Source: a virus. From it: DNA of 42,503 nt. The DNA lies in IMG/VR virus record IMGVR_UViG_3300048930_001405, positions 1 through 42,503 of that record; one strand, given 5' to 3'. Every line of letters begins with the position of its first letter. Position 1 is the stretch's first letter. Positions 7,005 through 10,088 of the stretch are shown one piece after another. The notes beneath the pieces are model-generated. The model had not been told where the DNA came from and ran no database searches. It saw only the letters and a list, made by a program, of their open reading frames with translations. The position numbers and the translations under genes were made by a program.

Positions 7005-7049
7005 GGCCGGGACATTGTCCCGGCCTGGCCCGGCCACGTCCGGGACAGG
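7005..7049. repeat. Dispersed palindrome copy 2
   Basis: Three palindromic units in tandem (GGGACATTGTCCC, GGCCTGGCC and the half site GTCCGGGAC) between the RecT-like stop and the metallopeptidase start. This copy is intergenic if the metallopeptidase starts at GTG 7072. It also holds a TTG codon that a gene caller could mistake for the start. Confidence 0.75.
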
Positions 7050-7071
7050 TGATGATCGAGGAGATAGCCCC

Positions 7072-7950
7072 GTGGATTCCACCGGAAAGCGAAACCGCAC
7101 CGAGACACTCGATGGGCGAGTAGCCGACATGGCTTGCTACCTCCCTGACGAAGACGACTTCGTTGAGGGGGAATACCTTGAGGGTGAGTCGCTCGAGATT
7201 ATGGCCAATGCGGTCATTGAGCACTACGACCGCTTCGAAGATCTCCGGGAAACAGAGTTTGGCAAGATCCGAGTTCGCTACCTCTGGGTAAACGGGGAGA
7301 AGAAGAGCGGCGGTCAACTTGTCTTGGGTTGGTGCCAAAAGGCCAACGGCCTCACAAAGTGGTTCACCGGCGTGGACTACGTGATTGGTATCCAGGTCGA
7401 GGCGCTGAGGCTGCACAGCTTCACAAATTGGCAGCTTGAGGCGCTTCTGTTTCATGAGCTCTGCCACATCGAGATCGAGACGGGCAAGGGCGAGATCAAA
7501 CGTCGCGTTAAGGGTCACGACCAGGAGATCTTCCACGACGAAGTGACGTATTACGGACTTTGGAAGTCATCGCTCGAGCCGACGTACGAAGCTTTCAAAC
7601 AAATGCCGCTCACTTCCAAGATCGCGCATGCCAACAAGAAGGCGGAAAAGTCGCTAGCGGAAATCGATCGTCTCCTGAAGAAGGACGAACCAGCTCCGGC
7701 TAATTCCTCTTCGTCACCCCTTCCCGAGGTCAAGCAATTCAGGGATTCGATGCAGCGTCTCGCAAACGAAGATGGTTTGACAGTGACGCTGTCCACTCCG
7801 AACCAGTGCGTCTCGATCGGACCAACCAGACGGGTGGTCGACGGCGAGACGTTTGAGCGAGACGAGTTCGGCCGTTACGTGAATCGCGAGACCGGTGAGT
7901 ACCTCGACGTCGCCGATGTTGTGCCCCTCAAAACAGCCGGCGGACGGTAG
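7072..7950 (+). CDS. Putative phage metallopeptidase
   Basis: A 292-residue protein. HELCH (residues 128-132) followed by H149 in KGHDQEIF gives a gluzincin-like zinc site. The surrounding sequence matches the putative phage metallopeptidase domain known from early regions of many phages, whose substrate is unknown. The C-terminal 110 residues contain an acidic Ser/Pro linker and a small beta domain (RDEFGRYVNRETGEY). GTG 7072 is the preferred start because GAGGAG lies about eight bases before it; an upstream TTG lies inside a palindromic repeat. No signal peptide is present, so it acts in the cytoplasm. Confidence 0.8.
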   Translation: MDSTGKRNRTETLDGRVADMACYLPDEDDFVEGEYLEGESLEIMANAVIEHYDRFEDLRETEFGKIRVRYLWVNGEKKSGGQLVLGWCQKANGLTKWFTGVDYVIGIQVEALRLHSFTNWQLEALLFHELCHIEIETGKGEIKRRVKGHDQEIFHDEVTYYGLWKSSLEPTYEAFKQMPLTSKIAHANKKAEKSLAEIDRLLKKDEPAPANSSSSPLPEVKQFRDSMQRLANEDGLTVTLSTPNQCVSIGPTRRVVDGETFERDEFGRYVNRETGEYLDVADVVPLKTAGGR

Positions 7951-7955
7951 CGGTT

Positions 7956-8930
7956 ATGGCTTGGGTTGAGTCACATCAGGAAATTGGCAAGCATCCGAAG
8001 ACCAAGCGAGCCGCTCGATTGGCCGGTGTCAGCATCCCGACCATGGTCGGTCATTTGCATATGGTCTGGCACTACGCGCTCGATTTCGCCGAGTCCGGTG
8101 ATGTGACTCACCTCGAGCCGTGGCAGATCGAAGACGCCGCTATGTGGGACGGTGCTGAGGGCAAATTGCATGCGGCGCTCGTTGAATCGGGATACATCGA
8201 CGTCGATGAAGAAGGCAATCGATCACTTCATCACTGGCATGACTACGCCGGCAAACTGATCGAACGGCGGCGCGTGGATTCCGAACGAAAGCGCAAGCTC
8301 TCCGCGCCAAATCCACCAAAGCGCTCAGGAACTCCTGTCGTCGTCGCCCCGGATTCCACTGGAACTCCAACGGAAATCCATCGGAACTCCGACGGAATTC
8401 CAACAGAAGCCGTACAGAGTCCGTCAGTAACCTTAACCGTTACCACTACCAGTTCAGAAGTACCTCACGGTACTTCTGGCGCTGAAGCGCCGATCGATCA
8501 CCCTGACGATGGAGTTCCAGAACAGCCGACGGACGATACCGGATCCACGAAAGAGCTTCCCGAAAACGGTCCGGCGCAGCGATTGGTCGCCTGGTGGTGC
8601 CGAAAGACGGGCGTCGAGAAACCCGCGAGCTACGGCAAAGCGGTCGGCGCGGCTCGGGACCTGCATGCGGCTGGAATCACGACCCCGGCCCAAGCCGAGG
8701 AGCTGTACGAGTACTGCCTGACGATCCTCAGCGGCGGCATCACGCTAAACGCCATGCTCGCGTCGCTGGACAGCTTCTGGGCGGTAAAGAATCGGCCTCC
8801 GAGAACGCGAGCAGCGCCGATTTCTGCCTTGCCACCACCTCCCCAACCACGCCGAGAAATGGCGAAGAGCGCCGAAGAACTGCATGCACGATCGGCCAGT
8901 TTCATGGCCGGAACCCGAGGTGACACATGA
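7956..8930 (+). CDS. Phage replication protein (initiator/organiser-like)
   Basis: A 324-residue protein. The N-terminal about 100 residues (MAWVESHQEIGKHPKTKRAA, then the strand-helix block ending SLHHWHDYAGK) resemble N-terminal domains of phage replisome-organiser proteins. The middle (about 110-205) is low-complexity Thr/Pro/Ser linker. Residues about 205-300 are helical (AWWCRKTGVEKPASYGKAVG). It sits directly before the DnaC-like loader with a four-base ATGA overlap, the lambda O-P arrangement. The linker-coding DNA carries regularly spaced repeats and hairpins (8328-8491), suggesting that the origin lies inside the gene. The role is inferred mainly from context. Confidence 0.7.
   Translation: MAWVESHQEIGKHPKTKRAARLAGVSIPTMVGHLHMVWHYALDFAESGDVTHLEPWQIEDAAMWDGAEGKLHAALVESGYIDVDEEGNRSLHHWHDYAGKLIERRRVDSERKRKLSAPNPPKRSGTPVVVAPDSTGTPTEIHRNSDGIPTEAVQSPSVTLTVTTTSSEVPHGTSGAEAPIDHPDDGVPEQPTDDTGSTKELPENGPAQRLVAWWCRKTGVEKPASYGKAVGAARDLHAAGITTPAQAEELYEYCLTILSGGITLNAMLASLDSFWAVKNRPPRTRAAPISALPPPPQPRREMAKSAEELHARSASFMAGTRGDT
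8328..8491. other. Candidate phage replication origin inside the replication gene
   Basis: Octamers of the form GGAAnTCC occur at 8361, 8372, 8383 and 8394, exactly 11 bases apart. An identical GGAACTCC occurs at 8328 and a degenerate GGATTCC at 8351. They are followed by a run rich in TAACC/TTACC (8425-8450), a perfect 10-bp hairpin (CAGAAGTACC pairing across TCAC, 8455-8478) and a second 5-bp GC hairpin (8478-8491). One-turn-spaced iterons followed by a melting region and hairpins, placed within an initiator gene, resemble the lambda origin in gene O. Function is inferred. Confidence 0.5.
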
Positions 8931-9730
8931 CCGCCCAACATGCCGCGAGTGGATTCCAGCCGATCGGACGGTCATTGGCCGCGATGCCGGACCGATTCGC
9001 CTCCTTGCGGGAGCGTGATCGTCAGCGCCGCATAGAGGTCATTGCCGAGCATGGCTGGGCCGACGACGTGAACTGCTTGCGATGTGGCGATACCGGCACC
9101 GTGCCGGCCAACGGTGGCGGCGTGTTTCTCTGCGATTGCGACATCGGCGCCGGGATCAAAGCCGTCAAGGATCGTGAGGCGAAGTGGCGCGAAATGATTC
9201 CTCGTCGCTTAGCGGACTACCGGCTCGATACATCGCCACAACCGATCATCGCGGCTGAGCTGAGTCGATGGGTGGCGAGTTCACCATGGCACCGCGGCGA
9301 GAATCTGCTGCTCTACGGTGGCATTGGGACCGGCAAAACGGGACTCGCGATCGGCGCTCTGCGAGCTGCGCACGAGGCCGGCGTTTCGACCGAATTGATC
9401 ATCCTCTCGGACTGGTTGATCAAGCAGCGGCCATCAGGTGCAGGCCTCGTCGAAGAGGACCAGATGGAGATCGCGAGTCAGCCGTCGCTGCTGGTGATCG
9501 ACGACATCGGCACCCAGAAGGATTCGCAGTTCACCTACGAGCGGATCTATGTGCTGATCAACCGGCGGTATCTGGCGATGAAGGCCACGATCGTCACCAC
9601 CAACCACTCCGATCGCAGCGTGCTGAGTACCAGCCTGGGGGAACGCGCGACGAGCCGATTGCTTGAGCAATGTCTGCCGATCGAAGTCGAAGGCCCGGAT
9701 TTCAGGGAAGCACGTTCGGGGAGTCGCTAA
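8927..9730 (+). CDS. DnaC-like AAA+ helicase loader
   Basis: A 267-residue ATPase that would load the replicative helicase on the phage origin. Walker A GGIGTGKT is at 131-138 and Walker B LLVIDD at 188-193. Sensor-1-like TIVTTNHS and an arginine-bearing GERATSRLLEQ segment follow, as in DnaC/IstB proteins. Before the AAA+ domain, C50, C53, C69 and C71 (CLRCG, CDCD) form a zinc-finger-like module, as in many phage loaders. Start ATG overlaps the replication-protein stop (ATGA), giving coupled synthesis. Confidence 0.9.
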   Translation: MTAQHAASGFQPIGRSLAAMPDRFASLRERDRQRRIEVIAEHGWADDVNCLRCGDTGTVPANGGGVFLCDCDIGAGIKAVKDREAKWREMIPRRLADYRLDTSPQPIIAAELSRWVASSPWHRGENLLLYGGIGTGKTGLAIGALRAAHEAGVSTELIILSDWLIKQRPSGAGLVEEDQMEIASQPSLLVIDDIGTQKDSQFTYERIYVLINRRYLAMKATIVTTNHSDRSVLSTSLGERATSRLLEQCLPIEVEGPDFREARSGSR

Positions 9731-9731
9731 G

Positions 9732-10088
9732 GTGGCAAGCTCAATCATCCACGTCTCTGAAATGGCGAACTTTCCTGGCGCGGTCTACATCGGACGCGCC
9801 AACGGGCGCAAAGGCTTGAAGGCCAGCCCGCTTCAAAACACGTTCGTCATAGGGCGAGACGGCACACGGGAGGAGGTCATTGACGACTTCCAAACCCTCT
9901 TCACGAGCAAGGTGGAGAAGGGGTTCCCAGAAATCATCAACGCGCTCATTGATGCCCGTGGCAAGCCGCTCGCGTGCTGGTGCCGGAAGTCCACGCAGCG
10001 CGGCCCAGCCTGTCACGGCGATGTGATCCTCGAGCTGCTTGCCCAATACACCGACGAGCATCTGGTGGCCATGATCGGAGGCCGCTGA
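9732..10088 (+). CDS. DUF4326-domain protein
   Basis: A 118-residue protein. AVYIGRANG near residue 17, the SPLQNTFVIGRDGTRE segment (32-47), LACWCRK (80-86) and ACHGDVILEL (93-102) match the DUF4326 pattern, including its CWC and CHGD signature. The family is widespread in phages and probably folds around these Cys/His residues, but its reaction is unknown. GTG 9732 is the start, with GGGGAG eight bases upstream. It lies two bases past the loader stop and is followed two bases later by the nuclease gene. Confidence 0.85.
   Translation: MASSIIHVSEMANFPGAVYIGRANGRKGLKASPLQNTFVIGRDGTREEVIDDFQTLFTSKVEKGFPEIINALIDARGKPLACWCRKSTQRGPACHGDVILELLAQYTDEHLVAMIGGR

Follow-up and report, generated by a model that had tools for sequence, protein, structure and literature searches.

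The lambda origin lies within gene O, and its iterons are followed by a strand-asymmetric A+T-rich tract and an inverted repeat. Binding of the O protein opens the A+T-rich tract (PMC5043065). In the iteron plasmid origins (RK2, pSC101, P1, and F), phased iterons lie beside an unstable region (PMC5043065). In the unwinding region of Bacillus subtilis oriC, DnaA-trios come after the DnaA boxes, and DnaD has its own recognition element and reads the opposite strand (PMC10201434). Here, we analyzed a 42.5-kb stretch of a virus record (hereafter the window) and found an initiator gene with iterons, an unstable box, and hairpins in the DNA encoding its linker. This segment is very probably the phage replication start site within the initiator gene.

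With the lambda sequence as a control, the window showed the same intragenic iterons, strand-asymmetric tract, and inverted repeat in the same order, and a helicase-loader gene next to the initiator. However, the lambda iterons are about 18 bp long at 20–24 bp spacing, the lambda tract has no significant 5-nt repeat (z 1.5), and the window initiator is not homologous to O by Pfam and shows no sequence match to the O family. As in the unwinding region of B. subtilis oriC, a short single-strand motif is repeated after the double-strand sites. However, the unit of the phage box is 5–6 nt versus 3 nt in the DnaA-trios, and the phage initiator has no AAA+ match. Given the period of 5 or 6, the lack of a DnaA box, and the lack of an AAA+ match, the box is not an element of the DnaA-trio type. 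Involvement of DnaA was also rejected, because no TTWTNCACA box was found anywhere in the window. The window shares with the plasmid origins the phased iterons beside an unstable region, but its origin is inside the initiator gene and the initiator matches no plasmid Rep family. The same N-terminal domain (50% to 34% identity), iterons in the linker, and a 5-nt box were found in Paenibacillus phage Harrison gp65 and in the initiators of Faecalibacterium and Roseburia phages. These differ from the window in having GTCAC or GACC iterons, Asn or Glu at residue 108, and a 5-nt rather than 6-nt box.

The initiator gene and its repeats

The features of the locus are as follows.

7956 to 8930, plus strand: initiator gene, 324 aa (open reading frame with a PHROG 9474 profile match)
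8235 to 8303, plus strand: codes for a long basic helix, aa 94–116 (predicted model)
8277 to 8279, plus strand: D108 codon, within the basic helix (the residue that tracks the iteron class)
8328 to 8335, plus strand: outlying GGAACTCC of the GGAAnTCC type, 33 bp (3 × 11) upstream of the array, that is, before 8361
8355 to 8407, plus strand: iteron array in 11-bp steps, TCCnnnGGA cores at 8355, 8366, 8377, and 8388 and a degenerate copy at 8399
8427 to 8450, plus strand: hexamer box GTAACC-TTAACC-GTTACC-ACTACC, a putative unwinding or single-strand element (lag-6 p = 0.01, codon shuffle)
8455 to 8478, plus strand: hairpin 1, stem CAGAAGTACC / GGTACTTCTG, loop TCAC (pairing kept in the closest relative)
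8478 to 8491, plus strand: hairpin 2, GGCGC-TGAA-GCGCC (identical 5-bp stem and another loop in the closest relative)
8511 to 8518, minus strand: iteron-like half unit in inverted orientation, GGAGTTCC (the reverse complement of GGAACTCC), beyond the hairpins
8927 to 9730, plus strand: DnaC-like helicase loader gene (PHROG 50, E 3.8e-31; Pfam IstB_IS21, E 1.5e-11)

The PHROG 9474 profile ("replication initiation protein") matches aa 1–117 of the initiator (E 6.5e-37), and by this N-terminal match the protein belongs to that family. Its PHROG matches are replication families other than lambda O. No Pfam family was found at E 0.1, and thus there is no lambda O, AAA+, or plasmid Rep match. The predicted structure consists of an ordered N-terminal domain (aa 1–117), a disordered linker (pLDDT <50 at aa 151–199), and a helical C-terminal domain. 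The C-terminal domains of some relatives match DnaD, and the profile of the alignment matches DnaD 8ojj (E 2.4e-5), while Pfam gave no match for the window protein by itself. Structural comparison of the model gave just weak winged-helix matches (MarR and IclR), none of them usable, and the top match, a low-quality DnaD model (Z 6.4 at rmsd 21.8 Å), was discarded as well. The DnaC-like loader frame is directly downstream and overlaps the end of the initiator gene. The gene upstream of the initiator (7027–7947) encodes a putative phage metallopeptidase domain (Pfam PF18894, E 3.3e-17).

The GGAAnTCC octamers start at 8361, 8372, 8383, and 8394, in 11-bp steps, and besides these and the copy at 8328 the plus strand of the window has just two more, at 9985 and 37544. 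Three in a row at 11-bp spacing appeared in 0.16% of codon-preserving shuffles of the gene and four in a row in 0 of 20,000; the array is not due to chance. The unit common to the relatives is TCCnnnGGA every 11 bp; thus, the octamers and these cores are one array read in two registers.

In the window, the 30-bp stretch with the lowest duplex stability in the initiator gene starts inside the box. In the closest relative and in two others (L011 and L012), the box is likewise the weakest 30 bp of the entire gene, and across the family it coincides with the local minimum of duplex stability, while the iteron DNA is a stable duplex. In addition, the box is strand-asymmetric, with C on one strand and almost no G. 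The array is therefore adjoined by an unstable, strand-asymmetric tract, as in lambda. It should be noted that the hexamer box of the window encodes a ValThr/LeuThr dipeptide repeat, which could partly explain the period of 6. Since it is in step with the codons, its own periodicity is weaker evidence than that of the 5-nt boxes of the relatives. All four elements that the initial annotation had pointed out, namely the octamers at 11-base spacing, the fifth copy at 8328, the TAACC-rich segment, and the two hairpins after it, were recovered in our analysis.

The closest relative (L002/L010, one contig; 67% protein identity) shares the array, an identical GTAACCTTAACCGTTACCACTACCA box, and both hairpins, and lacks the GGAGTTCC half unit. 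Where a residue is identical in the two proteins, its codon is also identical at 28 of 32 positions in the iterons, box, and hairpins versus 90 of 169 elsewhere (Fisher p 3e-4). In L011, whose N-terminal domain is 70% identical, the iterons are spaced 11, 11, and 11 bp apart and the box is AACCGTAC. Far from the origin elements, at 8688–8730 (initiator codons 245–257), every residue identical to the closest relative is also codon-identical. Perhaps this region is a second DNA-level element or is under strong codon constraint.

To survey the family, we collected 100 non-redundant genes from three scans and annotated phages, and compared linker self-similarity at each lag of 4–25 nt with codon-preserving shuffles. 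A first search of genome contigs with the full-length initiator found no relative. The linkers showed an excess at lags of 5, 10, 15, 20, and 25 nt and at 11 and 22 nt. At p 0.05, 58% of the genes were significant at lag 10, 55% at lag 11, and at most 11% at other lags; for 93 control reading frames of the same loci, the share was at most 5% at any lag. TP901-1 rep and A118 gp49, which have other N-terminal domains, showed neither the 5- nor the 11-nt signal. In phi11 gp15, the 11-bp signal was present (z 4.0), and those at 5 and 10 nt were weak (z 2.6 and 2.5).

The unit of the box is a degenerate 5-nt NWACM (e.g., GTACC, TAACC, and GTACA), with an AGA type in one clade, and seven genes including the window have the 6-nt form. 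We found no clear alignment column at which a protein residue tracks hexamer versus pentamer boxes. AGA-type boxes (GGAGA and GTAGA) also occur outside the GACC clade, in L032, L059, and L060; thus, a switch of box type need not go along with a switch of iteron class. Of the 52 genes carrying both, 49 have the iterons before the box, at a median distance of 55 nt. About 20% of the relatives have no called iterons, and some have another linker insert. In five linkers (L031, L084, L111, L118, and L189), a Cys-x-x-Cys-like stretch of HNH-type appearance replaces the iterons.

To measure the distance between iterons and box, we counted from where the last iteron core begins to the box's first ACC or AGA. 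In the window, the first ACC is 42 bp past the start of the last intact core. Of the 15 GTCAC-type genes, 12 have a distance of 11 bp, and values of 10, 21, 32, or 43 bp prevail in the GACC clade. For most TCCnnnGGA genes the distance is 19–20, 30–31, 41–43, or 52 bp. In this class, three neighboring phases of 11 account for 26 of the 29 genes (p 3e-12, with the phases picked after seeing the data), and the Rayleigh test, which needs no choice of phase, gave p of about 7e-8. The distance steps by 11 bp, so the box lies on the helical grid of the iterons. Relatives sharing this fixed layout are spread over several bacterial phyla. The initial annotation had named absence of the repeats from relatives as one refuting observation, and its reading withstood this check, as the iterons, the unstable box, and partly the hairpins do recur there.

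Beyond the box, the hairpins of the window fold as single-stranded DNA well below shuffles (z = −4.5; −5.1 for the closest relative). Hairpin 1 of the closest relative has two base-pair differences, both of which are compensatory, despite Val to Leu and Thr to Asn changes in the protein. L011 has a hairpin of GTCCTCC-TTCG-GGAGGAC. The hairpins of the window and of its nearest relatives are statistically clear, but only 20% of the relatives have significant ones (p 0.05). One may ask whether they work in RNA, for example in mRNA stability or as a terminator, rather than in the origin. Their stability is equal on either strand, which this reading would accommodate. However, no T run follows them, the Rfam search for a known RNA element gave no match, and the lambda control has an inverted repeat at the equivalent place beyond its tract. 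We thus consider a role in RNA unlikely.

Residue 108 and the iteron class

In the discovery set, residue 108 is Asp in 34 of 34 TCCnnnGGA genes and in 0 of 33 with GTCAC, GTAACG, or ACGTG iterons. For 91 genes, the held-out loci included, Asp108 was found in 39/39 of the TCCnnnGGA class and in 0/52 of the other called classes (phi 1.00), and the next-best alignment column, residue 112, reached a phi of 0.69. Held-out loci with a called class agreed with the residue 108 rule in all cases (14/14). Asn108 accompanies GTCAC and ACGTG iterons, Glu108 the GACC class (13/13), and Arg108 GTCAGCGC-like repeats (four genes). One Asp108 protein (L215) has no iterons. This covariation speaks for the proposal of the initial annotation that the encoded protein is the iteron binder, and we conclude from it that the initiator very probably binds the iterons.

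The iteron class changes 33 times on the N-domain tree versus 58 in shuffles, which indicates repeated switching with clustering; on a tree built without the helix, 18 changes are needed for both traits. The association persists when just the DNA downstream of codon 108 is counted. Only three independent pairs represent well-supported switches (3/3 concordant, p 0.25), so the ancestry-free test is weak. These few switches, together with the position of codon 108 just about 20–80 bp before the iterons, would also fit a block swap of neighboring DNA by recombination that involves no reading of the DNA by the residue. However, residues 107 and 109–111 are equally close and correlate far less (best 0.44; 0.69 for 112), and several unrelated iteron classes each have their typical residue. 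We regard the block swap as a rather improbable source of the covariation.

Proposed opening of the origin

The array, box, hairpins, and covariation indicate a lambda-type intragenic iteron origin whose initiator has no detectable homology to lambda O. The label "lambda-like" in the initial annotation thus holds for the layout and fails for homology, as Pfam gave no lambda O match. Its claim of a phage origin gained support from the PHROG replication family, the adjacent DnaC-like loader, and the recurrence of the elements in relatives. As a marker of the origin, the GC skew of the window was uninformative, as it is flat with no clear turn at 8.4 kb.

We infer the following course of initiation. 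The winged-helix-like N-terminal domain would bind the TCCnnnGGA iterons through the basic helix (aa 94–116), with D108 as its probable specificity residue. One initiator would sit on every 11 bp, all on the same face of the DNA, and the array would end in helical register with the weak-duplex box of short ACC-containing repeats. The initiators stacked on the iterons could then melt the box and hold one strand. The C-terminal domain may recruit the DnaC-like loader and thereby place the replicative helicase at the box. The hairpins past the box may block re-annealing or aid the entry of helicase or primase. For this combined explanation (intragenic origin, iteron-bound initiator, box melting, and helicase loading), we estimate a probability of about 0.88.

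Intragenic sites can regulate their own gene, and the repeats might instead be an operator through which the protein represses or tunes its operon, with replication beginning elsewhere. However, this would leave unexplained both the conserved order of a phased, unstable box and a hairpin and the surrounding replication gene families, and we consider it very improbable. Low-complexity coding of a linker that is predicted to be disordered, with a V/L/T dipeptide pattern encoded by the hexamer box and no function of the DNA, is largely refuted, because neither 11 nor 5 nt is a multiple of 3, the signal is lost in codon-preserving shuffles and absent from control genes, and the iteron class follows one residue in another domain.

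For the intragenic origin, we further propose a two-part code, which in our judgment has an even chance of being correct. Residue 108 (D, N, E, or R) would select the iteron class, and the 11-bp-phased array would guide the initiator to a repeated 5- or 6-nt single-strand motif (NWACM), a counterpart of the DnaA-trio with an initiator that is not AAA+. A search of mainly open-access literature for the repeat returned nothing relevant. The phased pentamer or hexamer box and the one-residue recognition code are apparently undescribed in the mainly open-access literature covered.

These results would provide a sequence rule by which replication origins can be located across a broad range of phages and prophages, and the residue-to-iteron code is testable. 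In addition, the box points to ordered single-strand motifs next to initiator sites in origins other than those of DnaA, and it bears on how initiators other than AAA+ proteins open DNA.
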